From: an uncultured Siphonobacter sp.
Lineage (GTDB): Bacteria; Bacteroidota; Bacteroidia; Cytophagales; Spirosomataceae
Direction: 5' to 3'
Assembly: GCA_913774715.1 (NCBI GenBank)
Contig: CAJYHS010000061.1
Coordinates: 1-64,000 of the forward strand
DNA: 64,000 nt
This document shows positions 43,971 through 58,076 of this stretch, in pieces. Position 1 is the stretch's first letter; the number at the start of each line of letters is the position of its first letter. The position numbers and the translations under genes are program-made. Under the pieces are notes generated by a model. The model ran no database searches, had not been told where the DNA came from, and worked only from the letters and a program-made list of their open reading frames with translations.

Positions 43971-46160
43971 TTAGTTTCCTAATTCTAATTGATTTCGAAT
44001 CAGCTCATAGTATTCTCCCCGAAGGGCTACTAACTCCGCGTGGGAGCCTTGCTCGGCAACTCTACCCTTGTTAAGCACAATAATTTGGTCGGCATTCTTT
44101 ACCGTACTCAACCGGTGAGCGACTACGACCACGGTTCGTCCCTGACAAAACGTATCTAAGTTTTGCATGATGATTCGCTCGTTATTGGCATCTAGGGCGC
44201 TGGTGGCTTCGTCAAAAAAGATAATTTCAGGGTTTTTATAAACGGCCCGGGCAATCATGATTCGTTGCCGTTGACCCTGACTAATGCCATTGCCCTCGGC
44301 CCCGATTTTTGTATTATAGCCCAGGGGAGAGGATTCAATGAATGAAAAGATGTTGGCAATGCGAGAGGCCTGGTTTAGCTTCTCTACATCGGGTTGTTCA
44401 TCGGTAATGGCAATATTGCGCGCAATGGTATCCGAAAAGATGAAGCCTTCCTGCATGACCACGCCGCATTTACTGCGCCAAAAACGATGACTCAGATTCT
44501 TTAAGGAGAGCGAGGAGCCTAGGCTGATTTGACCCGAATCGGGATCATAGATTCGTAGGAGTAGCTTGAGTAAAGTCGTTTTACCACTACCACTGGTCCC
44601 CACAATGGCCGTGGTTTTGCCGGCTGGAATGCTAAAACTTACATTTTTTAAGACGGGCTCATTGCCAGCGCCGGGGTACGAAAAAGATACTTCCTCAAAG
44701 GTAATAGATAGATGGTCGGGCACTTGAGCGATGAGATTCTTACTGGCGGGTTCTTCTTCTTCAAGGCCATGAATGTCATTGAGCCGCTCTAAGCTAATTT
44801 TGGCATCCTGAGCCACCTGCATGAATTGGATCAACTGCTCGACTGGACCGTTCATTTGGCCAATGATGTATTGAATGGCCAGCATCTCGCCCAGACTCAT
44901 TTCTCCCGCAATGACGGCTTTGGCCGCCAAGAAGATGATAAAAATGTTTTTGCCTTGATTGATTAGGAAAGCGCCGGCTTGTTGGTTTTGGGCCAGTACC
45001 AGGTTTTTGACGTTGAGTCTAAATAAGCGCGCCTGAATTTTTTCCCAGTCCCATAGTTTTTGCGTACCGCAATCGCTGAGCTTGATTTCATGCACGCCCG
45101 TAATGAGCTGAATGACATTGTTTTGGTTGCGGGCCGACACCTCAAATCTTTTGTAATCCAAATTTTTGCGGCGCCCCAAAAACAAACTAATCCATCCGGC
45201 GTATAGAAGACTGCCGATTAAAAAAGTCCAGAAGATAGTAAGCTTGTAGTAGGCCAGAATCAATCCGAAAATCAATAAATTGATTAAGGAAAACAAGGTA
45301 TTTAACGTGCCATTGGTTAAGAAATTCTCAATCCGCCGGTGATCATTCATGCGCTGGAGAATGTCCCCCGTCATTTTGGTGTCAAAAAAGGACAAGGGTA
45401 GCCGCAGGAGTTTAACCAGAAAATCCGATAAAATGGATATGTTCAAGCGGGCACTGATGTGTAGAAAAATCCATCCCCTGACGAATTCAATGCAGGTCTG
45501 ACCCAGCGATAAAAAGACCTGCCCGAGTAAAATCAGGTAAATAAAGGGCAAATCGTGATGGTTGACGCCAATATCAACAATGGATTTAGTTAAGAAGGGA
45601 AACAGCAATTGGAGTATGCTTCCCGCAACCATTCCAATGAAGAGTTGAAATAACAATCGCTTGTATTTCAATAAATGCTTCATGAGGTGATCAAACCCCA
45701 TGGAAAGCTGTTTTTCGTCGCTTTGCTCGAAAAACGTGGCCGTTGGTTCCAGCAGCAGAACAATGCCTTCCTTGCGGTTTTCATGCTGGGTACTGGCCCA
45801 ATGCTCTAAAAACTCATCCTTGGAATACACCATCAAGGACTTGGCCGGGTCCGCGATATGTACTTTTTTGCGGGTCACTTTGTGGATGACTACAAAGTGA
45901 TTTTTATCCCAGTGGGCTACGCAGGGAAGCGAAATATTTGATTCTAGCTTATCATAGGATATACGCCCACCCAGCGTACGGAATCCCAAACTTTCAGCGG
46001 CTTTGCTGATGCCTAACAGGGATACACCGGATCGACTGATGCGGGATTTGGTACGCAGTGAATCCAGGGTAAAATTACGACCGTAGTGCTTGGCAATCAT
46101 GCGCAGGCATGTTGGACCACAGTCCATCATATCGAGTTGTTTATAATGCGGAAAAGCCAT
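43971..46160 (-). CDS. C39 peptidase-containing ABC exporter (PCAT), copy 2
   Basis: 729 residues from the ATG at 46160; the open frame runs 35 codons further up but overlaps the LanC-like gene. Peptidase triad: Cys14 in MMDCGPTCLRM, His88 in AHWDKNHFVVI and Asp104 in IADPAKS. The ATPase has GTSGSGKTT, ISQGQRQRIMIARA (signature variant with SQGQ in place of SGGQ) and IIFFDEATSALDAN. It is a paralogue of the exporter at 39115, roughly half identical by eye. It probably cuts and exports GG-leader peptides of the locus. Confidence 0.94.
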   Translation of the reverse strand: MAFPHYKQLDMMDCGPTCLRMIAKHYGRNFTLDSLRTKSRISRSGVSLLGISKAAESLGFRTLGGRISYDKLESNISLPCVAHWDKNHFVVIHKVTRKKVHIADPAKSLMVYSKDEFLEHWASTQHENRKEGIVLLLEPTATFFEQSDEKQLSMGFDHLMKHLLKYKRLLFQLFIGMVAGSILQLLFPFLTKSIVDIGVNHHDLPFIYLILLGQVFLSLGQTCIEFVRGWIFLHISARLNISILSDFLVKLLRLPLSFFDTKMTGDILQRMNDHRRIENFLTNGTLNTLFSLINLLIFGLILAYYKLTIFWTFLIGSLLYAGWISLFLGRRKNLDYKRFEVSARNQNNVIQLITGVHEIKLSDCGTQKLWDWEKIQARLFRLNVKNLVLAQNQQAGAFLINQGKNIFIIFLAAKAVIAGEMSLGEMLAIQYIIGQMNGPVEQLIQFMQVAQDAKISLERLNDIHGLEEEEPASKNLIAQVPDHLSITFEEVSFSYPGAGNEPVLKNVSFSIPAGKTTAIVGTSGSGKTTLLKLLLRIYDPDSGQISLGSSLSLKNLSHRFWRSKCGVVMQEGFIFSDTIARNIAITDEQPDVEKLNQASRIANIFSFIESSPLGYNTKIGAEGNGISQGQRQRIMIARAVYKNPEIIFFDEATSALDANNERIIMQNLDTFCQGRTVVVVAHRLSTVKNADQIIVLNKGRVAEQGSHAELVALRGEYYELIRNQLELGN

Positions 46161-46177
46161 GGCTGAGAGAAGATCGT

Positions 46178-47368
46178 TTAAATGGTCATTAATAATCCAT
46201 CTAGCGTAGGTAAGTCTTTTCGAACGTACTGCATGAGTGAAATGCCAATACCGGTAATGCCCCAACCCAATGAAATTTGCATGAATTCATTGGATTCACT
46301 ACTGAAGCGATTGTGAAATCCGGCGTAGGGTCCCCCCTGATCATAGGACATAATCTGACTGTACCAATCCTGAGCGGCGGCTTGGTAGCGAATGTGACCA
46401 CTACGGCGGTACAAATCATCAAAGACGGCCGCTAATCCCGCTGCTCCATAGGTTATGGTGGCATCGGGCGTGCATCCATCGGCGATGCTTCGCTGACAGC
46501 ATTGACTTAAGATGTCATCTACCCGCTGGGCTAAAGCAAAGTCCTCTGTCAATACCTGAGAAGCTCTAAACAGCCCAAAGGCGGTTCCTAGATCACCATA
46601 ACACTGGGAAAACTGTTTGGCCTCTACCGCATCGCCCGCAATCAAGGGGAACAGGCCTAGCGGGTGGCTGCGCTGTTGAGACAGCACAAACTGACTGCCG
46701 GCTTGAAGCAGGCGCCGGGTTTGCTGCGTTCGAATGCCGGCTTCGTGCATGGCGGCTAAAAAGGCCAGAATCATACCTGAGCCGTGTGACAAGCCCAAGT
46801 AAACGGCATTTTTCAACGTAGGGGATTGCCAATAGGCGCCTCCTTGTGAATCGTAACGAGCCCAGGAATCAATGCAATCAATGACCTGCTCTAGCTGCGA
46901 ACGCACCGAGGGAGAGGAATTCATTCGGGCGTAAAAGTAGTGTCCCGCATGGAGTACGCCTCCAAATAAGTCCAAATCACCTACCTTCGAGCGGCGTTGT
47001 AAATGATCACTGATGAGCTCGTCCGTATTCCCTAAAAAATGGTTGGTGTCCATTTCTAGGAAGTGGTGTTTGAGGCAGTACTCCAGGTAACGACCCAGAG
47101 AAAGGTATTCATTGCAGACATAGTCCTGTTTAAAGCGTTTGACAAAGTGATCAGGTCCCATCAACGTCATGGCCTCATCAAAGTGTTTTTCGGCCTGAGT
47201 AAAGTAGGAGTCATCCCCACTGTATCGAGCGTAAAAACAGTAGTATAGGCTTACTCCTAATAATCCCTGTTCATAATCAGCCATGGTCAACAGGGGAGTA
47301 TAAGCCGGCAAGGCCTGCGTAATTTGTTCTATTTTTTGAACCGTTAGGGGGTTGGATAGAGATTTCAT
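46178..47368 (-). CDS. lanC: LanC-like cyclase with altered zinc site
   Basis: 396 residues from the ATG at 47368. The alpha-toroid motifs of LanC are present: YEQGLLGVSLYY, GLSHGSGMIL (His195), QCYGDLGTAFGL (Cys256). The expected second zinc motif CHG is replaced by ITYGAAG (Thr306, Tyr307), so two of three zinc ligands are missing. LanC normally activates Cys thiols with zinc to form (methyl)lanthionine. Either this protein acts without zinc in that way or it has another role. It lies directly between the TonB receptor and the C39 exporter. Confidence 0.85.
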   Translation of the reverse strand: MKSLSNPLTVQKIEQITQALPAYTPLLTMADYEQGLLGVSLYYCFYARYSGDDSYFTQAEKHFDEAMTLMGPDHFVKRFKQDYVCNEYLSLGRYLEYCLKHHFLEMDTNHFLGNTDELISDHLQRRSKVGDLDLFGGVLHAGHYFYARMNSSPSVRSQLEQVIDCIDSWARYDSQGGAYWQSPTLKNAVYLGLSHGSGMILAFLAAMHEAGIRTQQTRRLLQAGSQFVLSQQRSHPLGLFPLIAGDAVEAKQFSQCYGDLGTAFGLFRASQVLTEDFALAQRVDDILSQCCQRSIADGCTPDATITYGAAGLAAVFDDLYRRSGHIRYQAAAQDWYSQIMSYDQGGPYAGFHNRFSSESNEFMQISLGWGITGIGISLMQYVRKDLPTLDGLLMTI

Positions 47369-47428
47369 CGACAAAAGGGATTAGGGGTAGGTGCGAATAA
47401 ACGAGCCTGGATGAGTTAGAAAAAGAGA

Positions 47429-49813
47429 CTATAAGCGATTGGTTTCACTTTCATTGCCCAGCTTTTTCTCCTTGATTTGAGCTACCGTTTTCTTGCCAAA
47501 GTTGACCATCAGCGTAAAGCCCAAACGGCGGGAATCGCTATAGGTACGGGAATGAATTTGAACGGTTTGGTAGTCAATCAGACTTCGATACACGCTGCCC
47601 CGGGTAATGTCATTGGCGTATACCTTCAAGGTGGCTTTTTTCTGCCAGAGCTGTTTGGCTAGGCCCAGATGAATGGCGTGTAAGCTTCTTTCCTGGTAGA
47701 CGGCCGTTTGGCCCGGCGAATAGTAGTGGCCCGTTACTTCAAACTTCCAGGACTTGGGAAGATTAAAAGTATGGGTCGTGTTAAAACCTAAGTAGGCACT
47801 CGAGCGGGAGAAAGCCTGCAGGCCGGCCAGATTACCAAATTCAATCTGATCATAATTGGCCCAGACTGAATAAGTCGCCTGCCACCAGGGTTGAACCTGA
47901 TGCGAGAAGGAACCGCTTAAGTTGAGCCGGCGGATATGATCGAGGTTTCGCTGCCCGTAAATGGTAATCTTATTTTCTAAATCCTGGCGGGGGGCCCAGG
48001 CCATGAAGTTATTAATATAGCTGTAGCCAGCAATCAGGTTTACGTTTTTAACGCCATAGCTTAGCTCTAGGGTATTATCGTACTGCGGCTTGAGCAAGGG
48101 ATTGCCTTCCGAGGCGGTAAACCGATCATAGAGGCGGTAAAAAGGGACCATATTATTATAGTCCGGCCGGCTGATGCGCCGACTATAGGAAAGCGAAAGC
48201 TGCTGATCGGCGTTTAATTCCTGTTGCAGGTTTACACTGGGGAAATAATCCAAATAGTGGTAGCTGGCAATGTGGCTGATTTGTGCCTGGGTATGCTCGG
48301 CTCGTAGGCCCGCTTGAAGAGAAGTCGAATGCCATTTTTTTTGCGTCATGACATAGCCCGCCCGTACATTTTCTACGTAGGCACTCTGATTACTTAAGGA
48401 TTCATTGGTGATCCACTGGCCTCCGAGCAACTCCTGCTGGGTCAGGGTATTCGACGTTTGAACGCGTACCCATTTAACTCCCGCTTCTAGATCCCAAGCC
48501 TGGCGCAAGGGGTGATGATAATCAAGCTGGGAAACCCATAGGTTAATCGAGGAAGGATTGTAGGAGCGTAGTTTTTGGGTCGGCTGCTTGATTTCTGAAG
48601 TCGCGTTGAAGACGTCAATATCAAAGAACTGATTGGTTTGGGAAGTAAAGGGCGTGTAGGTTAGATTAAAGGTAACCTCCCGGCCCAGGCTATCTAACTT
48701 TCCTTGGTAGTTGAATCCGAAATTATCCGTTTTACGGGCAATGTCCCAGTTGGCTTGGGTAAAATAGGTCGAATCTTGTACCTGCCGCGCATTTGAAAAT
48801 CCGGTACGGGTTTCAAGTCGTCGATCATTATCAACACGGTTGGCATTATACGTCAGTCGGAACGTGTGCCAGGGGTGGAGTTGATAGTCCACACTAATTC
48901 GCATTGAATGCGTATAGGCGAGGGTATTGCTTTGGGTATTGTCATCAATTCTGCTGGCGGCTTCTTGGGTAAATAAACGGTATCCGGTTTCATCGGTGAA
49001 GCTGCGACGAGCACTCAGAAAATATTGACCCGAAAGACTTAATTTCTTTTTCCGATAGCCGAGGGTAAGACCCGTGTTGGAAAGACTAGGGCCTATGCCT
49101 TGCGAGAAAGTCGTTCGGGCGGTTCCGGTAAAACCCGTCTTTTCACTTTTTTTAGTGACAATATTAATGACGCCGCCGCCGGCGGAGGCATCGTAGCGGG
49201 CCGGAGGGTTGGTAATGACTTCAATGCGGGCTACTTCATCGGCCGGCATGGCCTCTAAAATGGCCTGTAATCCTCCTTGCTGGGGCCGCCCGTCAATGAG
49301 TACCAACACGCCACTCTTGCCTCGAACTGATATGCCACCACTGGGCGAAACCGATAGCAGCGGCATGACTCCCAGCACCTCCAAGGTATTACGCCCCAGC
49401 GCAACGGGACTATTGGCAATGTTCATGACGAGCCGGTCATTGTGGCGTTCGACTAAATTCTTTTGCGCTTTGACAACCACCTCTGAAAGGTTTTGCTTGT
49501 GTTCTTCTAAGGCAATGGATCCCAACTCCACCGGGGCTTTTACCGCGAAGACGGGGGTGGTTTTCTTGGCAAAGCCCACGTAAGTAATGTGAATTTGGTA
49601 GGAACCAGTCGCTACTGATTCAAAGCTAAAGCGACCGGATTCATCGGCAATTTTAACCTTTACGGCGGTTGAATCTTGCACAGAGCGTAAACTCACAGTC
49701 GCAAAAGAGGCCGGTGCTTGGGCTTTCTCAACGATCTGACCCGAGACGATCACTTGCGACCAAGCCGTTAGCTTTCCAAGCAAGAAGACGGCTATAAAGG
49801 CGTATCTTTTCAT
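47429..49813 (-). CDS. TonB-dependent outer-membrane receptor, heading the minus operon
   Basis: 794 residues. Signal peptide (ends WSQ, residue 20), carboxypeptidase-like domain (about 22-110), then plug segments VRGKSGVLVLIDGRPQQGG and MPADEVARIEVITNPPARYDASAGGGVINIVTK, and a beta-barrel of the OMP_b-brl type. It is not SusC-like and has no SusD partner. It is the first gene of the operon with LanC-like, exporters and radical SAM genes, and two 21-bp spaced repeats lie just upstream. It could take up or recognise the peptide, or give immunity or sensing. Confidence 0.9.
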   Translation of the reverse strand: MKRYAFIAVFLLGKLTAWSQVIVSGQIVEKAQAPASFATVSLRSVQDSTAVKVKIADESGRFSFESVATGSYQIHITYVGFAKKTTPVFAVKAPVELGSIALEEHKQNLSEVVVKAQKNLVERHNDRLVMNIANSPVALGRNTLEVLGVMPLLSVSPSGGISVRGKSGVLVLIDGRPQQGGLQAILEAMPADEVARIEVITNPPARYDASAGGGVINIVTKKSEKTGFTGTARTTFSQGIGPSLSNTGLTLGYRKKKLSLSGQYFLSARRSFTDETGYRLFTQEAASRIDDNTQSNTLAYTHSMRISVDYQLHPWHTFRLTYNANRVDNDRRLETRTGFSNARQVQDSTYFTQANWDIARKTDNFGFNYQGKLDSLGREVTFNLTYTPFTSQTNQFFDIDVFNATSEIKQPTQKLRSYNPSSINLWVSQLDYHHPLRQAWDLEAGVKWVRVQTSNTLTQQELLGGQWITNESLSNQSAYVENVRAGYVMTQKKWHSTSLQAGLRAEHTQAQISHIASYHYLDYFPSVNLQQELNADQQLSLSYSRRISRPDYNNMVPFYRLYDRFTASEGNPLLKPQYDNTLELSYGVKNVNLIAGYSYINNFMAWAPRQDLENKITIYGQRNLDHIRRLNLSGSFSHQVQPWWQATYSVWANYDQIEFGNLAGLQAFSRSSAYLGFNTTHTFNLPKSWKFEVTGHYYSPGQTAVYQERSLHAIHLGLAKQLWQKKATLKVYANDITRGSVYRSLIDYQTVQIHSRTYSDSRRLGFTLMVNFGKKTVAQIKEKKLGNESETNRL

Positions 49814-50146
49814 AAATTTTGTCGTTTGTTGACAACAAAACTCCTAGTCTCCCAAGCGCCTTGCAATAAATTTCGACTAACCTATCCTGGGTTTCGACAG
49901 AATATTAAAATGCCCCCCACTAGCCCTAATGGCCTTGTATTTTCAAGCCGTAAGGTGGCCTTATTGATTTGGTAGACTCACTTAGTGGACTGATAGACTT
50001 GATTCCGGATTTGGACTACTAATTGTTTTTAATAGCAAGTAGTCTCCCTTTAGCGGTAGAAATCTGTGACTAAAAACTTATCTTTACTTACCCTATTGTA
50101 TAAGGATTACATTCCTTATACAATTTACAACCCTAGTTTTACCTCT
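49814..50146. other. divergent regulatory region between TonB receptor and LytTR regulator
   Basis: 333 bp without a gene. It holds the 21-bp repeats for the receptor (49871-49899) and, further right, two TAGACT hexamers also exactly 21 bp apart (49973-49978 and 49994-49999), which could be weaker sites for the regulator genes. The regulator coding sequence starts at 50147. Confidence 0.55.
49871..49899 (-). promoter_or_regulatory. two direct repeats with 21-bp period upstream of the TonB receptor
   Basis: TTTCGACT (49871-49878) and TTTCGACA (49892-49899) are spaced exactly 21 bp. Read on the minus strand they are (A/T)GTCGAAA, the same unit as the repeats at 52062-52111. They end 58 bp before the receptor ATG and point in its direction. 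Likely binding site of the LytTR regulator at 50147. Confidence 0.75.
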
Positions 50147-50869
50147 ATGAATAGAATTGCATGCATTATTGTGGATGATGAAGAATTAGCCTTAGATGTA
50201 CTAGAAGCCTTCATTAATCGACTTGCGGATGTAAATCTGCTGGGCCGCTTTACCAATGCCTTCGATGCGCTGGATTTTCTACAGACGCATGCCGTCGACC
50301 TTATTTTTACCGACATTGAAATGCCCCAGGTAAGCGGTATTGAAATGATACGATCGCTGAGCTCAACTCCGGAGGTGATTTTCACGACGGCTTATCCTAT
50401 CTACGCCGTCGATGGATTCGAGTTATCGGCGGTGGATTACTTATTGAAACCTATTTCTTACGACCGCTTTACCAAAGCAATCCATAAGTTTAAAAGCCGG
50501 CTGCTCTCTGACGTATCTTCTGTACCGTTAGCGAATCCTGAGCGCTCGGAGGTGCCGTACATGTTTGTGCGCGAAAACGCCAAAGTGGTTCAAATTTTCT
50601 TCAACGATATTCTGTGGGTGGAAGGCCTGCGAGATTACGTAAAAATCGTCACCAGTAACCGCACCATCATTACTCATACGACCATGAAGCGTATGGAAGA
50701 GCTATTGCCTTCCTTGGACTTTGTGCGCACGCAGCGATCCTATATTGTTCGCATTGCGGCCATAAAAGCCATTAATGGTAATATGATCGAGATGAAAGAT
50801 GGGTCACAAATACAAATTGGCCTGCAGTATAGAGATCAGTTAATGAATGTACTCAAACCCATTAATTAA
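50147..50869 (+). CDS. LytTR response regulator, locus 2
   Basis: 240 residues from the ATG at 50147 (the open frame begins at a GTG 27 codons earlier). Receiver domain with CIIVDDEELALDVLE, Asp56 in IFTDIEMPQVSG and Lys in LLKPISYDRF. LytTR domain with WVEGLRDYVKIV, TTMKRMEELLP, FVRTQRSYIVRIAAIKAI. It partners the sensor kinase 14 bp downstream. It is placed between two operons whose promoters both carry AGTCGAA direct repeats, so it probably switches both on. Confidence 0.93.
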   Translation: MNRIACIIVDDEELALDVLEAFINRLADVNLLGRFTNAFDALDFLQTHAVDLIFTDIEMPQVSGIEMIRSLSSTPEVIFTTAYPIYAVDGFELSAVDYLLKPISYDRFTKAIHKFKSRLLSDVSSVPLANPERSEVPYMFVRENAKVVQIFFNDILWVEGLRDYVKIVTSNRTIITHTTMKRMEELLPSLDFVRTQRSYIVRIAAIKAINGNMIEMKDGSQIQIGLQYRDQLMNVLKPIN

Positions 50870-50883
50870 CTCTTTTCGATCGC

Positions 50884-52056
50884 ATGACTTTTTCAAGTAC
50901 CTTACGGCACTGGTTTACGGCCTTTGTGTATGACCAGCCTGCGTACCGTCGGATTCGTTTGTGGGTGCATTTGGTCTTTTGGACCATTGAATTATTTCTT
51001 CAGTTTTGGATTTACAAGGATTTGCACCCCGGCCATAAACCCGGCTATCTCTGGGCAGAAGGACTCAAGCATGTCTTTAGTAACGCCTTTGTGTTCTATG
51101 GTCTATTATGGTGGTGGCACTATCCGTGGCGCCGTCACCGCTGGGTGGCCTTAGTCATGCTGGTAGTGGTGGCCTTGTTAAATGCGGTGGTCGTCACTTA
51201 CGTTCACGACTACTTTATATTAAAGTATGAATTAATCCCTTCCAACCGGGCGTATTGGCAGCTCATGGCGGACCGCTTTAATTTAGGATTTAAAGACTTT
51301 CTCATTGCCCAGTGGAATCAAGGACTCATCCTGAGTCAATTTGTGTTCATTGAATCCTTGTGTTTTGTTATTAAATTATCCAAGGAAGCCATTAAGTATG
51401 GAAATCGAAGTTTGCTACTCGAGCAAGAAAATCTAAAAATTCTCAAAGCCCATACCGATTTAGAATTAAGCTTTCTCAAGGCTCAGATTAATCCTCATTT
51501 CTTTTTCAATACCTTAAATAGCCTCTATTCTCTTTCACTTAAAAAATCAGATCAAGCCCCTGATTTAATTTTACAATTATCAGACTTGATGCGGTATGCT
51601 TTATATTCAACCAATGTGCCTTGGGTAAGTCTAGAGCGAGAACTGCAGTTCATTGAGGACTACCTTTCCATAGAAAAAATACGCTTAGGTAATCGGGTTC
51701 AGATTGATTATCAGGTAGAAGGCTCGGTAGAAGCTCTTCAAATACCTCCCTTGCTGCTCATTGTTTTCATTGAAAATGCGTTTAAACATGGCATTAAAAA
51801 TGAGCTTTACCAGGGTTGGATTCGACTCAAGCTCTGGGTGGAAAACGAATCCTTTACCTTTGAAATAGAAAATAGTAAACCCGATGATTCCAAGCTTCGT
51901 AAAGACGTTCAGGCCGAGCCTAATGGCGGTATTGGTCTAGCCAACGCTCGTCGCCGTTTATCGCTTCTGTATCCCAATCAGTTTGATATTTTTATTGACG
52001 ATACCCCAACTCGTTACCGGTTGGTATTACAAATAATGCCTAAGCAGTCTGAATGA
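50884..52056 (+). CDS. LytS-type sensor histidine kinase, locus 2
   Basis: 390 residues. Four membrane segments at about 28-48, 63-80, 86-106 and 145-165. Kinase core: KAQINPHFFFNTLNSLYSLSL with the phospho-acceptor His, IENAFKHGIKNELYQG for the ATP site, and IGLANARRRLSLLYP. No large periplasmic domain. Its signal is unknown; the exported peptide of the locus is the natural candidate, as in quorum-controlled lanthipeptides. The three repeats start 6 bp after its stop. Confidence 0.92.
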   Translation: MTFSSTLRHWFTAFVYDQPAYRRIRLWVHLVFWTIELFLQFWIYKDLHPGHKPGYLWAEGLKHVFSNAFVFYGLLWWWHYPWRRHRWVALVMLVVVALLNAVVVTYVHDYFILKYELIPSNRAYWQLMADRFNLGFKDFLIAQWNQGLILSQFVFIESLCFVIKLSKEAIKYGNRSLLLEQENLKILKAHTDLELSFLKAQINPHFFFNTLNSLYSLSLKKSDQAPDLILQLSDLMRYALYSTNVPWVSLERELQFIEDYLSIEKIRLGNRVQIDYQVEGSVEALQIPPLLLIVFIENAFKHGIKNELYQGWIRLKLWVENESFTFEIENSKPDDSKLRKDVQAEPNGGIGLANARRRLSLLYPNQFDIFIDDTPTRYRLVLQIMPKQSE

Positions 52057-52061
52057 AATTT

Positions 52062-52111
52062 AGTCGAAAGCGTGGGGTAGTCAGTCGAAAACTGATCCAC
52101 TTCAGTCGAAT
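52062..52111 (+). promoter_or_regulatory. three direct repeats with 21-bp period upstream of the peptide genes
   Basis: AGTCGAAA (52062-52069), AGTCGAAA (52083-52090) and AGTCGAAT (52104-52111): the 7-mer AGTCGAA occurs three times, each exactly 21 bp from the next. The last ends 67 bp before the first peptide ATG. Position, orientation and spacing match those ahead of the TonB receptor. Likely LytTR sites. Confidence 0.8.
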
Positions 52112-52178
52112 AAACTTGGGAAGCCTATCCAGGCGCTGCATCTTCGAATCGAAAACAAAACGAAACCCAGTTAACCTA

Positions 52179-52331
52179 ATGAAAAAACAAATCCTAACCT
52201 CCGAGCTCGAATTCAACAAAGAAATCATTAGCGTACTTTTAGATCTGGTAGGAATGGGCGCTTTAGCTAATCCTACGGATGTGACCATCAACACAACTAC
52301 GGCGGGAACTACTCGTCCTGGGGCACTTTAA
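52179..52331 (+). CDS. small Thr-rich peptide without Cys, possible precursor
   Basis: 50 residues from the ATG at 52179 (the longer open frame upstream covers the repeats). The first part, SELEFNKEIISVLLD, resembles the LxLNKE leader box of Bacteroidota class I lanthipeptides. The end is rich in Thr: VTINTTTAGTTRPG. It has no Cys and no clear GG. It could yield a dehydrated but ring-free product or be a partner peptide. It is first in the peptide gene row after the LytTR sites. Confidence 0.6.
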   Translation: MKKQILTSELEFNKEIISVLLDLVGMGALANPTDVTINTTTAGTTRPGAL

Positions 52332-52341
52332 AACTTCCGCT

Positions 52342-52551
52342 ATGAATCTGTATCATTATCTTCAAAAGTTCACCAAACGCGGTCATTTATCGCGCGTACC
52401 TTCCGATTTTTCACGGATGAACCCTCAGGAACTTTCTACTGTAGTGGGCGGGAACCAATACATGAGCCGGCTCAGTAGTGTCGATTCAGCTACCCAGCCC
52501 GATGATTCAATAGAGCCTATGAATTTGCCTGAAAAGCCAACATTCTCCTAA
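52342..52551 (+). CDS. GG-leader peptide without Cys
   Basis: 69 residues. The leader ends MNPQELSTVVGG (Gly36, Gly37), a canonical double-glycine site for the C39 exporters. The remainder (NQYMSRLSSVDSATQ, then DDSIEPMNLPEKPTFS) has several Ser and Thr and no Cys. It follows the Thr-rich peptide by 10 bp. No further family assignment. Whether LanB acts on it is unknown. Confidence 0.65.
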   Translation: MNLYHYLQKFTKRGHLSRVPSDFSRMNPQELSTVVGGNQYMSRLSSVDSATQPDDSIEPMNLPEKPTFS

Positions 52552-52665
52552 TAAAAATTTAGCTAATCCTATGATTTTCACTAAGGCTTAAGTGACTTAG
52601 GCAGGATTCTTACGCTCCATAATCACTAGTTCTAATCACTACTAGACGCTGCATTGGCAAATCGT

Positions 52666-52842
52666 ATGAAAAAAGTAAAGGCTACTTCTTTAGGCTTAGA
52701 CAAGCAAATTCTAGCCAATCTTGACGAAGAGGAATTAACTCAAATTATAGGTGGGCAACACGAGACGGATGAGGAGCAGGGGGAGGATACCATCCCTATC
52801 AAAACTGAAACCTGCATGCTTACGGTTCAAACAACGGCCTAA
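52666..52842 (+). CDS. class I lanthipeptide-type precursor with one Cys
   Basis: 58 residues from the ATG at 52666 (a TTG four codons upstream is in frame). The leader reads SLGLDKQILANLDEEELTQIIGG, matching the others downstream, with GLDK in place of LNLDKE. After GG the core is very acidic (HETDEEQGED) and ends TETCMLTVQTTA with a single Cys. Thr residues on either side of that Cys are possible dehydration sites. It is the most divergent member of the row. Confidence 0.78.
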   Translation: MKKVKATSLGLDKQILANLDEEELTQIIGGQHETDEEQGEDTIPIKTETCMLTVQTTA

Positions 52843-52926
52843 TCTATCCATTAAAATTTCAGTACGCTTCCGCAGCTATGGATTCGAAAATTCTGATCAA
52901 TTCATCCAAAGAGGCAAGCGCAAGAC

Positions 52927-52940
52927 TTTCACTTTTTAAA
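52927..52940 (+). repeat. 14-mer leader repeat, copy 1 of 3
   Basis: TTTCACTTTTTAAA occurs here, at 53200-53213 and at 54138-54151. In the first two it sits 10-11 nt before a peptide ATG; the third lies 73 nt before the LanB ATG. Identical short sequences ahead of three genes of one locus suggest a shared translation or RNA-processing element. Confidence 0.65.
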
Positions 52941-52950
52941 CCAAAAACAA

Positions 52951-53139
52951 ATGAAAAAGACAAACGTAAACCCCTTAAATCTTGACAAGGAAACCTTGGC
53001 CAATTTAGATGAGCAGGAATTAGCTCAAATTGCTGGGGGCCAGGAAGAGTCCATCATCGAAGAAGAGAGCGATTGCCAGGAAAAAAGCTGCATGAAAAAT
53101 ACCGGTAATTGTATTGGGACAGTTAAAACCAAGGAATAG
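52951..53139 (+). CDS. class I lanthipeptide precursor A
   Basis: 62 residues. The leader is MKKTNVNPLNLDKETLANL followed by DEQELAQIAGG: LNLD corresponds to the FNLD box that LanB enzymes recognise, and the GG (29-30) is the exporter cleavage site. The core has an acidic start (EESIIEEESD), then DCQEKSC, MKNTGNC, IGTVKTKE: three Cys, three Thr and a Ser in front of the second Cys. Thr-Gly-Asn-Cys would make a four-residue ring. It is one of three tandem copies. Confidence 0.85.
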   Translation: MKKTNVNPLNLDKETLANLDEQELAQIAGGQEESIIEEESDCQEKSCMKNTGNCIGTVKTKE

Positions 53140-53199
53140 TTTATTAGTCAAGTACAACCTTCTTTCGTTTATAGATTTTACTTTTTAATTATTCCATTT

Positions 53200-53213
53200 T
53201 TTCACTTTTTAAA
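53200..53213 (+). repeat. 14-mer leader repeat, copy 2 of 3
   Basis: Same TTTCACTTTTTAAA as at 52927, 11 nt ahead of the second precursor ATG (53225). Confidence 0.65.
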
Positions 53214-53224
53214 CAAAAAACAAA

Positions 53225-53413
53225 ATGAAAAAGACGAACGTAAACCCGCTCAACCTCGACAAAGAAACCTTGGCTAACCTTGACGAAAAAGAGCTGTCTC
53301 AAATTGCCGGTGGTCAGGAAGAGTCCATCATTGATCAAGAAGATGGTTGCCAGAAAGAAAGCTGTATGGAAAAAACGGATGGTTGCATTGCTACCGTTAA
53401 AACCAAAGCTTAA
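53225..53413 (+). CDS. class I lanthipeptide precursor B
   Basis: 62 residues. The leader is almost the same as in precursor A (DEKELSQIAGG in place of DEQELAQIAGG). The core differs: EESIIDQEDGC, QKESC, MEKTDGC, IATVKTKA. Three Cys and the Thr ahead of the third are kept. Divergence is mostly in acidic and basic residues between them, as expected for duplicated core peptides drifting under a common enzyme. Confidence 0.85.
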   Translation: MKKTNVNPLNLDKETLANLDEKELSQIAGGQEESIIDQEDGCQKESCMEKTDGCIATVKTKA

Positions 53414-53465
53414 TGGTTAGGCTTGCCCTTATTTAGTAATCTCTAAAGTATATACTATCAAGCAA

Positions 53466-53654
53466 ATGAAAAAGACGAACGTAAATCCGCTCAATCTTGA
53501 TAAGGAAACCCTGGCAAACCTTGATGAGCAAGATTTAGCCCAAATCGCCGGCGGTCAGGAAGACGTCGTCGAGGAGGAGGCTGACTGTGAAGAAAAGAGT
53601 TGCATGAAAAATACCGGTAATTGTATTGGTACAGTTAAAACGGTTTCTCTGTAA
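53466..53654 (+). CDS. class I lanthipeptide precursor C
   Basis: 62 residues. Leader identical in pattern (DEQDLAQIAGG). The core is EDVVEEEADC, EEKSC, MKNTGNC, IGTVKTVSL. MKNTGNCIGTVKT is shared with precursor A. The Ser of the ESIIEEES part is absent, so the first Cys has no Ser or Thr before it in the core, and only the later rings can form. It is the last peptide before the GC-rich hairpin at 53660. Confidence 0.85.
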   Translation: MKKTNVNPLNLDKETLANLDEQDLAQIAGGQEDVVEEEADCEEKSCMKNTGNCIGTVKTVSL

Positions 53655-53659
53655 GTAAG

Positions 53660-53700
53660 AGGTCCGTCGCGCGTTACTAACGTAGGCGCGTGACGGACCT
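53660..53700 (+). terminator. strong hairpin after the precursor row
   Basis: AGGTCCGTCGCGCG (53660-53673) pairs with CGCGTGACGGACCT (53687-53700), one G-U in 14 bp. There is no T-run after it, so it could be a partial terminator or a stability or processing site that sets the ratio of peptides to the LanB genes downstream. It corresponds in position to the hairpin between peptide and lanB in locus 1. Confidence 0.75.
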
Positions 53701-53726
53701 AATTAAAGTCATAATATTTAATTACT

Positions 53727-54131
53727 ATGCTTGTATTATGCTTAGTTGTCGATGATGAGCCTCTAGCACAAGATGTACTACTGCATTACCTGCAGCAGTT
53801 GGATGATGTACACGTAATTGGGGTGTGCAGCAATCTAATGGAGGTCGAAACCGCCCTAGAGAAGCATCCCGATATTGATGTCATTTTTATGGATGTGGAA
53901 TTGCCAGGCTATACGGCCCAGGACTGGTTTCTAATCAATGAGTCCCTACCGTGTCCCGTTTGTATTGTCTTGACAACGGCATACCCATTAGCCTTATTGG
54001 ATGAGCAATTAAAGCAGAACGCATTTGCCATCTTACATAAGCCTATTCGCTTTGAGAATTTTAAAGCCGTATTGGAAGAAATTTTAGTATTGAAAAAAAA
54101 AAGTAGTCGCTACTCAAAAGAGCGCGACTAA
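53727..54131 (+). CDS. receiver-only response regulator in the lanthipeptide operon
   Basis: 134 residues. A complete receiver domain, LCLVVDDEPLAQDVLL, Asp56 in IFMDVELPG and Lys in ILHKPIRFENF, is followed only by a basic tail (LKKKSSRYSKERD). There is no LytTR or other output domain. The sequence style (VVDDEPLAQDVLL, TTAYPLALL) is that of LytTR regulators, so it looks like a regulator that has lost its DNA-binding half. It may compete for phosphate with the regulator at 50147 or act by protein contact. Confidence 0.85.
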   Translation: MLVLCLVVDDEPLAQDVLLHYLQQLDDVHVIGVCSNLMEVETALEKHPDIDVIFMDVELPGYTAQDWFLINESLPCPVCIVLTTAYPLALLDEQLKQNAFAILHKPIRFENFKAVLEEILVLKKKSSRYSKERD

Positions 54132-54137
54132 CTCGAC

Positions 54138-54151
54138 TTTCACTTTTTAAA
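54138..54151 (+). repeat. 14-mer leader repeat, copy 3 of 3
   Basis: Same TTTCACTTTTTAAA as at 52927, in the 93-bp gap between the receiver gene and the LanB gene. Confidence 0.6.
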
Positions 54152-54224
54152 ATCAAAACTCAAATCTAGGATTTTAATTAAGATTTTCAATTGATTCCAG
54201 AAACTTGTTCTCTTTTGCCAACCT

Positions 54225-57200
54225 ATGACTACGCTATTATCCACTGAAGCTTATTATTTATTACGTACGCCCGTTTTTCCTCTTACGGATCTACTGGATC
54301 TCCACCAACGAATCCTACAAGAGGGTTCTCTGACCTTGCCAGAGGAGCTAAAGGCATTATTCTCTACTCCCTTCTTACGGGAAGCCTTGTACACTAGCTC
54401 GCCAGAATTATACGCAGAATTTGAAAAGTGGATTCAGGTGTCCCCCCTTCCCCAGGCGGATCGAATGCTACTTTCTTTATATAAATATTACTTACGATTA
54501 ACCTCTCGTGCCACCCCTTATGGATTATATGCCGGCTGTAGCACCGGGCAAATTTCCGATGGCTGTACTCAATTAGAGTTTGCAGAAGAAAAAATACGTA
54601 GCGAATCACGGCTGGATATGAACTACGTAGCTGAACTTAGCAAGTCCTTACTAACCCGGCCAGAAATTCGTCAGCAAATTCTTTATTATCCCAACACCAG
54701 CCTCTACACCTTAGGCGATCAAGTCCGGTACGTAGAGCATACCCTTCGCAACAAATACCGATCTTTTAATTTAAGTGGGGTCAAAGCAACGCCGTATATC
54801 ATTGCCTTGCTGAAGCGGGCCAAGAACGGAGTACGCCTGGAAGAACTCGTAGATCATTTAATGGCTATGAATATTGACGAAACACCAGCTCGGCGTTTTG
54901 TCAATCAACTCATCGATAATCAATTATTACTAAGCGAATTAGAACCCAGCGTCACGGGCCCTGAATTTTTTTATCGCCTGCTGGACAAACTCAAAGAGTT
55001 TAAATACGTAGAAAAAGAACTAGAGAATCTTGAGCAAGCCGCCGCTCTGTTAAAAACAAAAGAAGCGGGCATTGGTCGCTACTTACGAATCAAAGAGCTA
55101 GTAGGAGACATTACCGCTACTCAGAGCAAGGATCTCATTCAGACGGACTTGTATTATGCTACGAAGGCTAACAACTTAAGTCAGAAAAGTTTAAATCATT
55201 TGCTTCCAACCCTGGATCGGTTGGTACGGGCCGGAAGTGTTAGTTCACCTCGGATTCTTGACGATTTTAAGAATCGGTTTCTGGATCGCTGGGAAACCAT
55301 GGAAATTCCCTTAGCTCAGGCGCTAGATAGTGAATCAGGCATTGGCTATGGTCTGACCAGCCAAGGAAACGCCGATAATTTGGTACTGCTTCAGCAATTA
55401 CATTTGCCCCGCAAAGAAAGAAAAAACACTATCCTTTCCTGGAACAAGCTTGCTGATCTGACCTTATCTGTATATAATCGATTCATTCAAGATGGCCAGG
55501 CTCATCAATACCTTACTGAGGCTGACTTAGCGGCCGTAAGTCAACCCGATATTGTCGAAAAAATTCCCGCGAGTTTATATGCGTTTGGCAGTTTTCTGGC
55601 CTCCTCCCCAGAAGCATTAGATCAGGGTGATTATACCTTTTTGCTGGGGACCTTAACGGGCCCGAGTGCCGCTAATTTGCTGGGACGGTTTTGCCACGGC
55701 GATGAAGTGCTGACGAGGCATGTCCAAGAAAGTTTGCGAAAAGAAGAATCCCAGTATCCGGATGCCATTTTTGCCGAAATCGTCCATTTGCCCGAAGCTA
55801 GGGTGGGTAATATCTTAGCCCGGCCCCACTTAAGGGAATATGAGATTTCCTACCTGGGGCAGTCCATTCTTCCTCAGCAGCAGACGCTGACTTTGGATGA
55901 TTTAATGATTTCCGTGCAGGCAGATGAGATTGTACTACGTTCTAAGAAACATAACAAGCGGGTATTTCCTCGCCTGTCAACGGCTCATAACTACAGCCGG
56001 GGATTAGCCGTTTACCGATTTTTAGCCGATTTGCAGCAACAAAATACGGCTCATAGTTTTCAGTGGGATTGGGGAATCTTTACCAAGCAGGCCTACCTGC
56101 CCCGCATTAGCTACCAACAGGTGATCTTGAGCAGAGCTCGTTGGTACCTTGAATCGCTTTCAGACGTAAATCCTGCCCAGGCCGGGTCCAGACTCAATGA
56201 ATTTTGCCAGTTACATAAGGTTCCTCGTTGGGTGATTTTATCCGAAGGAGATAATGAACTCCCCTTGGATCTTTACCAGCATCCTGCCCGGTTACTCTTA
56301 CTTGAAAAGCTTAAAAAGAAAGCTGTGACCCTCTATGAGTGGGTATTTGATTCTAAAAATTGCTGGGTGAAGGACCAAGGGGGAAGCTATACCCATGAAG
56401 TTATTCTACCTCTTCACCGGTCCAAGCCGTCGGCCGTAGCCAGTCCCATCGTTTTTGCTGAGCCCAAAATCAAGCGACAATTTGCCATCGGTAGCCAATG
56501 GCTCTATGTGAAAGTATATACGGGTACAAAAACGGCAGATCGGGTTATTTCTGAAGTGCTTCAGCCGCTAACGCACTACCTGGAAAACGAAGGGATTATT
56601 GAAAAATGGTTCTTCATTCGCTATAATGACCCTAAACCCCATATTCGAATTCGTTTTCAACACCGAAAGCATGCTACGTTTTGGATGGAAGTGCTTCAGC
56701 TCTTGCAGGAAAAGTTACAACCGTATTTACAAACCGGATTAATTAGTAAAATCATGGTTGATACCTATCAACAGGAGATCGAGCGGTATGGCGAAAAAAG
56801 TATCGAGTTATCCGAGGAGTTGTTTCACAAAGACAGTACTGCCATTGCGGATTTTTTAACCTTGATCGAAGGGGAGGATGGAGAGCAGTACCGCTGGAAG
56901 TTTGCTCTTTTGAGCGTTGATCGGTTGCTGAATGATTTTGGCTATAGCCTTTCGCAAAAAGCCGAGCTCATGAATGCCCTGGCCGCTAGTTTCCAGGATG
57001 AATTTGGAGGCAAGCGCAAGCTGATTCATCAACTCAATGAAAAGTATCGCACCCATAGGGGCTTTGTTGAGTTTTTCTTAAGCGGAGTCATCGAAGATGC
57101 TGATCTACAACTGGCCATCGCCTGCTTTGACCGACGCTCCCAATCCCTGCAAGACATGATCGCATCTTTACAGAATAGTCAGGGACAATCGGGTGTTAGT

Positions 57201-57365
57201 GCTATTGAGGAGCTATTGCCTAGCTACATTCATATGACGTTGAATCGAATTTTCTTATCCCAGCAACGGGCGCATGAACTCGTCATCTATCATTATTTAG
57301 CCAAGTACTATACCTCTTTACAGGCCCAACAAAAACAAAGGAATCTTAGCCCTTTAACTCTATAA
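54225..57365 (+). CDS. lanB: lantibiotic dehydratase (LanB), locus 2
   Basis: 1046 residues, full length with both parts. The glutamylation part has YYLLRTPVFPLTDLL near the start and LTSRATPYGLYAGC near residue 95; DYTFLLGTLTGPSAANLLGRF and FPRLSTAHNYSRGLAVYRFL are further family stretches. The elimination part has SQWLYVKVYTG, IIEKWFFIRYNDPKPHIRIRF, DTYQQEIERYG and YIHMTLNRIF. It should dehydrate Ser/Thr in the peptides encoded just upstream, reading their LNLD box. It is closely similar in layout to the LanB at 10326 (for example RYxDPKPHxRIR), but about 90 residues longer. Confidence 0.95.
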   Translation: MTTLLSTEAYYLLRTPVFPLTDLLDLHQRILQEGSLTLPEELKALFSTPFLREALYTSSPELYAEFEKWIQVSPLPQADRMLLSLYKYYLRLTSRATPYGLYAGCSTGQISDGCTQLEFAEEKIRSESRLDMNYVAELSKSLLTRPEIRQQILYYPNTSLYTLGDQVRYVEHTLRNKYRSFNLSGVKATPYIIALLKRAKNGVRLEELVDHLMAMNIDETPARRFVNQLIDNQLLLSELEPSVTGPEFFYRLLDKLKEFKYVEKELENLEQAAALLKTKEAGIGRYLRIKELVGDITATQSKDLIQTDLYYATKANNLSQKSLNHLLPTLDRLVRAGSVSSPRILDDFKNRFLDRWETMEIPLAQALDSESGIGYGLTSQGNADNLVLLQQLHLPRKERKNTILSWNKLADLTLSVYNRFIQDGQAHQYLTEADLAAVSQPDIVEKIPASLYAFGSFLASSPEALDQGDYTFLLGTLTGPSAANLLGRFCHGDEVLTRHVQESLRKEESQYPDAIFAEIVHLPEARVGNILARPHLREYEISYLGQSILPQQQTLTLDDLMISVQADEIVLRSKKHNKRVFPRLSTAHNYSRGLAVYRFLADLQQQNTAHSFQWDWGIFTKQAYLPRISYQQVILSRARWYLESLSDVNPAQAGSRLNEFCQLHKVPRWVILSEGDNELPLDLYQHPARLLLLEKLKKKAVTLYEWVFDSKNCWVKDQGGSYTHEVILPLHRSKPSAVASPIVFAEPKIKRQFAIGSQWLYVKVYTGTKTADRVISEVLQPLTHYLENEGIIEKWFFIRYNDPKPHIRIRFQHRKHATFWMEVLQLLQEKLQPYLQTGLISKIMVDTYQQEIERYGEKSIELSEELFHKDSTAIADFLTLIEGEDGEQYRWKFALLSVDRLLNDFGYSLSQKAELMNALAASFQDEFGGKRKLIHQLNEKYRTHRGFVEFFLSGVIEDADLQLAIACFDRRSQSLQDMIASLQNSQGQSGVSAIEELLPSYIHMTLNRIFLSQQRAHELVIYHYLAKYYTSLQAQQKQRNLSPLTL

Positions 57366-57368
57366 CCC

Positions 57369-58076
57369 ATGCCTGCACCCTTAGAAGTCCGTAGTGAAGA
57401 AATTCAGGAAATCATGGGAGCCGTTCCCAATCGTCTCATTCGTTGGGGTAGTGCAACGGTACTAGTGATAGTGATTGGAATGGTGACTGCTAGTTTTTAC
57501 ATTGAATTTCCGCAAACGGTTGCCCTGGCTATTAAAATTTCTGCTCAGAACCCCTCTCAACTCTACGTAGCCCCAGATGATTTAAATCTAGGGAAGGTGT
57601 GGGCGCACTCCAATCAGATTGTGGGTAAGAACGACTCCTTATTTTCCTACTCAGATCAAAAGCAAAACCATAAGGTAGTTACCTCGCCCGGTATTTACCG
57701 GGTAGAGTGGTTAAGGCCTTTGACATCAGGAGCATTTTTAGAAAAAAATAGTAATATTATGGTGCTTGTGGATACTTCCGGCGCTTATATAGGGCAGGGA
57801 GAATTAGCGGGTGAATTGATGGCTGGGGTTCGTAAAGGACAGCCCGTTCACATTCAACTAGATGCCTATCCTTCCCATGAGTTTGGTTCGGTGACTGGAC
57901 AAGTGTACGCCATTTCTCCTATTTTGAAAGACAAGAAGTATGGGATAAGTTTTTTCCTTCCTCAGGGTCTTCAAACTACCCGGGACAAGATTTCCCCTTC
58001 TCAGTCTGAATTAACAGCCCAGGCTGAGATCATTATAAAACGCAGGCAACTTTTTTGGCAATTTTTCTCGCATTAA
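57369..58076 (+). CDS. HlyD-family secretion adaptor, plus arm
   Basis: 235 residues, the same length as its paralogue at 38405. The start EEIQEIMGAVPNRLIRWGSATVLVIVIGMV gives a membrane helix at about 28-47. The C-terminal part reads VRKGQPVHIQLDAYPSHEFGSVTGQVYAIS, the HlyD pattern. It follows lanB by 3 bp. Its exporter partner is not on this arm, so it may join with one of the two C39-ABC proteins of the minus arm. Confidence 0.85.
   Translation: MPAPLEVRSEEIQEIMGAVPNRLIRWGSATVLVIVIGMVTASFYIEFPQTVALAIKISAQNPSQLYVAPDDLNLGKVWAHSNQIVGKNDSLFSYSDQKQNHKVVTSPGIYRVEWLRPLTSGAFLEKNSNIMVLVDTSGAYIGQGELAGELMAGVRKGQPVHIQLDAYPSHEFGSVTGQVYAISPILKDKKYGISFFLPQGLQTTRDKISPSQSELTAQAEIIIKRRQLFWQFFSH

Follow-up and report, generated by a model that had tools for sequence, protein, structure and literature searches.

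A putative LytTR operator of three direct repeats in a lanthipeptide cluster of an uncultured Siphonobacter

What switches on a lanthipeptide cluster in Bacteroidota, a step that seems little described? The question is raised by the 64,000-nucleotide stretch analysed here (the window), which comes from an uncultured Siphonobacter sp. and carries the 7-mer AGTCGAA three times on the + strand, at 52062-52068, 52083-52089 and 52104-52110, with spacings of 21 and 21 bp, between a kinase gene whose stop codon ends at 52056 and a run of small peptide genes. An earlier note on this DNA had pointed to these exactly spaced copies after the kinase gene, and they are as it described; its start at 52062 stands, whereas the array ends at 52110 rather than 52111 and 68 rather than 67 bases lie between it and the first peptide ATG at 52179. 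None of the open-licence papers found treats the operator of a two-component LytTR system in Bacteroidota; closest are the predicted repeats in LRS-like operons of Bacteroides, from the excerpts of PMC6193735. Comparison of related loci leads us to propose that the array is very probably an activator operator of the locally encoded LytTR regulator, acting at two divergent promoters.

The surrounding genes combine a two-component system with a class I lanthipeptide cluster. Upstream of the array, on the + strand, lie a LytTR response regulator (50147..50869; receiver and LytTR domains, PF00072 and PF04397 over cut-off, with an ITHTTM stretch), which is the presumed binder and the regulator that the earlier note had placed there, and a histidine kinase of the LytS/AlgZ type (50884..52056; PF06580 over cut-off). 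A PF06580 kinase beside a receiver-LytTR regulator is what marks a LytS/AlgZ-LytTR two-component system. Downstream on the same strand follow a first small peptide gene of 50 aa (52179..52331) and a second of 69 aa with a GG motif (52342..52551), both without a family match and both with positional equivalents in the two syntenic clusters described below, then four class I lanthipeptide precursors (52666..52842, 52951..53139, 53225..53413 and 53466..53654). The class I lanthipeptide leader profile NF038153 is over cut-off in these last four of the six small peptides and in neither of the first two. Beyond them come a receiver-only protein (53727..54131; PF00072 only), a LanB dehydratase (54225..57365; PF04738 and PF14028 over cut-off) and an HlyD-like protein (57369..58076; PF13437 over cut-off). 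The − strand carries a TonB-receptor-like outer-membrane protein (47429..49813; PF14905 and PF07715 over cut-off), a LanC-like cyclase (46178..47374; PF05147 over cut-off) and a LanT-like ABC exporter with a C39 peptidase (43971..46265, start codon provisional; PF03412, PF00664 and PF00005 over cut-off). LanB, LanC and precursors with a class I leader are thus all present, as expected of a class I lanthipeptide cluster.

The repeats differ from background in their spacing. Single copies of AGTCGAA mean little, since the 11 in the window (both strands) compare with 5.8 expected and are reached by 5 of 100 shuffles. The array is the only equally spaced triple of any 7-mer in the window at spacings of 8-40 bp; triples of this kind arose in 1% of 400 first-order Markov simulations of 64 kb, and at spacings of 20-22 in 0.25% of them. 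On the strength of its being the only triple, at a frequency of 1% of simulated windows, we set a chance origin aside. Across the whole 5.7-Mb genome, AGTCGAA-N13..15-AGTCGAA matches the array only, as two overlapping matches; the reversed control pattern also gives 2, so AGTCGAA pairs alone are not rare genome-wide. The exact pattern GTCGAA-N15-GTCGAA has three matches in the genome (reversed control, 2), two of them the overlapping + strand pairs of the array and the third on the minus strand, in the promoter of the TonB-receptor-like gene.

Comparison with other loci (below) widens the half-site to the consensus TTNGTCGAA, so that the three AGTCGAA copies proposed as the motif are real but AGTCGAA is not its general form. 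Against this consensus the distal half-site, TTAGTCGAA at 52060..52068 (+), matches at 8/8 positions; the middle one, TCAGTCGAA at 52081..52089 (+), 21 bp further on, and the proximal one, again TCAGTCGAA, at 52102..52110 (+), match at 7/8, both having TC instead of TT before the core.

The arrangement recurs in orthologous clusters. Only 7 of 222 genomes of the family, the Siphonobacter genome included, encode a regulator at E <= 1e-64, and two of these, G042 and G007 (loci L113 and L114), which are two species of one other genus, share the gene order of the window to the left and right. Each of them carries, in the stretch from kinase to first peptide gene, GTCGAAAA, which aligns with the middle half-site of the window, and ATCGAAAA exactly 21 bp apart. 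Over 58 bases that span the pair and the predicted −33 element the two sequences are identical, and they differ on both flanks. A comparison of related loci, which the earlier note had proposed, therefore shows the 21-bp NTCGAA pair to be kept and a clear third copy not to be: at the distal position G042 has only GTCTGG, 21 bp upstream of the pair, which we did not count as a site, and neither genome has a clear third copy. In all three syntenic clusters a receiver-only protein lies between the peptide genes and LanB (window 53727-54131, L113 9890-10264, L114 9401-9775), and a short receiver-like ORF precedes LanB in a Chitinophaga cluster (L076 8259-8624); such a protein could compete for the kinase's phosphate.

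Six LanB-bearing LytTR/kinase loci of named genomes are more mixed, with a 21-bp pair in three and no clear site in three (L033, L034 and L103). The Pedobacter pair (L078) lies before LanT, has one weak half-site and is followed by TTTG at offset 32; that of Chitinophaga filiformis (L090) lies before a small peptide gene, with TTAG at this offset; and that of Chitinophaga niastensis (L076) is divergent from the kinase, with TTTA. The second cluster of G010 (L119) has a weak site only.

A second putative operator, which the earlier note had missed, lies within the window itself. This GTCGAA-N15-GTCGAA element (49872..49898, −) reads towards the TonB-LanC-LanT genes and has counterparts in G042 and G007, so that GTCGAA pairs at 21 bp are found in the divergent TonB promoter of each of the three genomes; no site facing the regulator's own gene was found in the window. 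Both syntenic clusters have an NTCGAA pair, at 21 bp, at the peptide and the TonB promoter alike, at the same distance from the predicted promoter as in the window.

We compared seven promoters, namely the peptide and TonB promoters of the window, G042 and G007 and the peptide promoter of a related RiPP cluster in G010. Common to all seven, gapless from the proximal half-site, is the layout NTCGAA-N15-NTCGAA-N5-TTG-N20 followed by an 8-base −7 element. TTG stands at offset 5 after the proximal half-site in 7/7 promoters and TTTG at offset 32, but the latter reads TTCG in the peptide promoter of the window. Here the predicted −33 element is TTGG (52116..52119, +), its TTG at the same offset as in the other promoters, and the predicted −7 element is CATCTTCG (52139..52146, +), which has one mismatch in its TTTG part and aligns without gaps, from the proximal half-site on, with CAACTTTG of G042 and CAATTTTG of G007. 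By the same comparison the TonB promoter would have TTGC (49863..49866, −) as its −33 and GAGTTTTG (49836..49843, −) as its −7 element. The −7 consensus of Bacteroidota promoters is TAnnTTTG, and the shared layout would represent a promoter of this Bacteroidota type (TTG-N24-TTTG). A table in PMC6193735 gives the −7 element as TATCTTTG in Bacteroides. A sigma-70 scan, using a consensus foreign to Bacteroidota, found no more than in shuffles. G010 has two further sites with TTTG at equal distance, before other genes of its RiPP cluster; one of the two precedes a small Cys/Ser/Thr-rich peptide gene behind the kinase. Directly after the predicted −7 element, positions 52147-52155 of the window read AATCGAAAA, and G042 and G007 have AATCGTCAA there; conservation may extend around the transcription start too.

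These positions suggest how the operator would work. The kinase would sense a signal and phosphorylate the LytTR regulator, which would then bind the direct-repeat half-sites of the TTNGTCGAA type, on one face of the DNA and two turns apart. Because 5 bp separate the end of the proximal half-site from the predicted −33 element, the bound regulator would activate, recruiting polymerase at the peptide promoter and at the divergent TonB-LanC-LanT promoter. Transcripts from the former would cover the peptide genes and probably also the genes behind them, and the two divergent promoters together would couple peptide production to maturation and export. With its distal third half-site, the peptide promoter would have a variant of the common two-site layout, and this extra half-site probably adds affinity or cooperativity.

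The same operator could instead be bound by the regulator as a repressor that hinders RNA polymerase. CoxC sets a precedent, being a known repressor at a LytTR operator of three repeats, but its repeats overlap the −35 box in the excerpts of PMC11347149, whereas in the seven promoters compared 5 bp lie between the proximal half-site and the predicted −33 element downstream of it, which puts the half-site near the place that the parts of PMC6193735 drawn on here describe for activating LytTR repeats. We regard repression as unlikely and activation by the regulator as the better account of these promoters.

The array has three features by which LytTR-type operators are recognized: at least two imperfect direct repeats of 8-13 bp, a period of about two helical turns (21 here, with a peak at 21 in other LytTR loci) and a location just upstream of the predicted −35/−33 element. 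In the excerpts of PMC6193735 and PMC4064291, the promoters of AgrA, VirR, PlnC/PlnD, HdrR and other LRS systems are directly preceded by imperfect direct repeats, 8-13 bp long (9 bp for HdrR) and separated by about 12 bp, and the array resembles these operators in period, half-site length and location. Its half-site, TTNGTCGAA, differs from AgrA's ACAGTTAAG as quoted from PMC11039898 and, unlike the operators of AgrA, VirR, PlnC/PlnD and HdrR, the array would serve a predicted Bacteroidota promoter and a lanthipeptide cluster. Closer in phylogeny are the LRS-like operons of Bacteroides, for which the same parts of PMC6193735 predict direct repeats of 11 bp that are separated by 11 bp and lie 11 bp upstream of TGTA-19-TATCTTTG. 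These belong to the same phylum, and their four-base −33 and eight-base −7 elements are likewise 19 bases apart, but their period is 22, their half-site is TCCGGTATTCA or ACCGGAAATCA, and their regulator has membrane segments where the window encodes a kinase-receiver pair instead.

Two further systems resemble the array in part. The core recognized by Pseudomonas AlgR, which works with the kinase AlgZ/FimS, is given in the excerpts of PMC4064291 as CCGTTCGTC or CCGTTTGTC; it has TTNGTC in common with the consensus here and is otherwise distinct, and the 9-bp core CCGTTCGTC is absent from the array, whose copies read TTTAGTCGAA, GTCAGTCGAA and TTCAGTCGAA. In the operators of RcoM1 and CoxC, as excerpted from PMC11347149, a LytTR domain binds direct repeats that are again three in number and spaced by about two turns. 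These operators differ in the half-site (TTCNNGCA or TTNNNGCN), and CoxC senses carbon monoxide and represses; the RcoM/CoxC consensus TTCNNGCA / TTNNNGCN does not occur in the array of the window, though three repeats are present.

How widespread is the site? In 109 other loci with LytTR/kinase matches (1.05 Mb), seven GTCGAA pairs lie at offset 21 and at most one at any other offset from 7 to 60. A motif-free search for repeated 7-mers in 126 LytTR/kinase loci, confined to DNA outside ORFs of at least 90 aa, peaks at offset 21 as well (57 repeats, followed by 42 at offset 45 and 41 at offset 18); offsets 27 and 54 are also raised, probably through simple tandem repeats. Across the 222 family genomes, TTNGTCGAA-N12-TTNGTCGAA has 48 matches, in 34 genomes, against 11 for the reversed control. 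The bare pair GTCGAA-N15-GTCGAA is not clearly commoner than its reversed control in the same 222 genomes, so that the TT flank is needed in the search pattern. At class level (395 genomes), the enrichment is weak, at 38 matches against 14 in the control, with 10 of the 38 from one genome. Genomes of genus g31 are rich in GTCGAA-N15-GTCGAA, G217 and G216 for example having 35 and 24 matches against 2 and 4 reversed, none of them with TT flanks.

Within the family, sites of this kind show a strong association with LytTR genes. A LytTR gene was found within 5 kb in 23 of 41 family loci (among them one overlapping pair), in 4 of 26 class loci and in none of 33 control loci; about 3% would be expected from the 19 LytTR genes in the 5.73 Mb of the Siphonobacter genome. 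The 41 loci cover 45 of the 48 matched places; the other three, in G010, G042 and G007, were excluded as the source of the idea. The control loci were hand-picked from the listed matches of the bare-core pair, and 30 of the 33 lie inside ORFs, which makes them a soft control, for core sequence and not for intergenic position. The distance from site to LytTR gene is often about 0.5 or about 1.5 kb. Together with the conservation between syntenic clusters, this family-level association supports the candidate-operator reading put forward in the earlier note.

The count bears equally on whether some other DNA-binding protein, rather than the local LytTR regulator, recognizes the site. The 18 of 41 family loci in which the profile scan found no LytTR gene within 5 kb would fit such a protein, although remote LytTR genes may be missed there because the profile derives from 32 relatives of the window's LytTR domain. 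Against it stand the 23 loci that do have one, a spacing equal to that of LytTR sites in the excerpts of PMC6193735 and PMC4064291, and the confinement of the genome's three exact pairs to the lanthipeptide cluster. We consider recognition by another protein improbable and keep the local regulator as the candidate binder.

The promoter geometry can also be followed across the family. Of 42 family sites, a set without three places that lie within ORFs of at least 130 aa, 13 have TTTG at offset 32, against a mean of 0.44 per offset; relatedness inflates the count of 13, since 10 of them come from one genus. Among 17 class-level sites there is no TTTG peak at offset 32.

A period of 21 bp is also a period of seven codons, and the repeats could therefore encode a repeated Ser-Arg motif in an N-terminally extended first peptide (52053-52331, 92 aa). 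The frame is indeed open from 52053, where an ATG overlaps the kinase stop, through the repeats into the first peptide, and the peptide frame of G007 is open over the repeats in the same register (Cys-Arg-Lys, His-Arg-Lys). With that frame open too, the case against a coding repeat rests on two features of the syntenic clusters: the only in-frame ATG, GTG or TTG within 81 upstream codons in G007 is a single TTG, after the repeats, and in G042 a stop codon interrupts the peptide frame after the repeats, 9 bases ahead of the ATG. A pair of this kind is also present in the divergent promoter, and we set the coding repeat aside as very improbable. That the repeats act as RNA, as a leader structure or attenuator in the mRNA of the peptide genes, is barely credible and was likewise set aside: read-through from the kinase gene would place them in a transcript, but 52053-52178 folds no better than shuffles (z 0.19; 108/200 shuffles as good), no Rfam match exceeds its gathering score in 49700-54300, and the predicted promoter lies downstream of the repeats.

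With a DNA operator as the preferred reading, the third half-site can be placed among its relatives. A third copy matching at 6/8 or more positions stands 20-22 bp outside the pair in 13 of the 42 family sites, against 0 or 1 at each other distance tested from 14 to 30; three copies are thus a recurrent form, seen in the window and elsewhere. Among the 13 are five near-identical promoters from one genus, in which the third copy is proximal and the promoter is shifted along, and one (L231) is a longer tandem repeat. A longer series, which may be an operator array or an unrelated repeat, occurs in genome G527 (L255 5001-5177), where nine copies of TTAGTCGAA follow one another head to tail at exactly 21 bp within a 116-aa ORF; no LytTR gene was found in the 10 kb around it.

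Most regulators near these sites share a residue in the DNA-binding domain. The histidine of an HxT(M/I) stretch (ITHTTM in the window) is present in 29 of 31 LytTR domains of site loci (28/29 and 1/2), compared with 1 of 18 other LytTR domains (paralogues) of the Siphonobacter genome; it is missing in L272, whose LytTR gene lies 3.5 kb from the site, and in the second of the LytTR genes at the G010 locus. The sole paralogue with the histidine (L324) has TTGGTCGAA-N12-CTGGTCTAA upstream, facing away, and then CAACTTCG at the expected distance. This degenerate site of the same geometry agrees with prediction, as a single case sought after the alignment had been seen. By profile alignment the histidine falls on a tyrosine of AgrA, which we count as residue 183 by taking the His seven columns into the stretch as the H169 of PMC11039898 and PMC12482169. 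The tyrosine lies near N185 and L186 and is not among the contacts named in the excerpts of these two papers.

Whether the pattern extends beyond this cluster is, in our estimate, evenly poised: two-component LytTR regulators of Bacteroidota with HxT(M/I)-His may form a large subgroup that switches on peptide and transport clusters through one rigid cassette, TTNGTCGAA-N12-TTNGTCGAA-N5-TTK-N24-TTTG, to which a third half-site may be added at one end or the other. If so, the target promoters of uncharacterized lanthipeptide clusters could be read from DNA. With half-site, spacing and promoter distance defined, and a signature residue in the regulator, the operator, its regulon and its specificity become open to direct test, and expression of the regulator is a suggested way to wake silent clusters. 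A related repeat with the same period and an altered half-site, GTTCATCG at 21 bp, occurs within the 100-210 bases before the kinase ORF in four Mucilaginibacter loci (L046 5451, L063 5450, L067 5309 and L072 5452).
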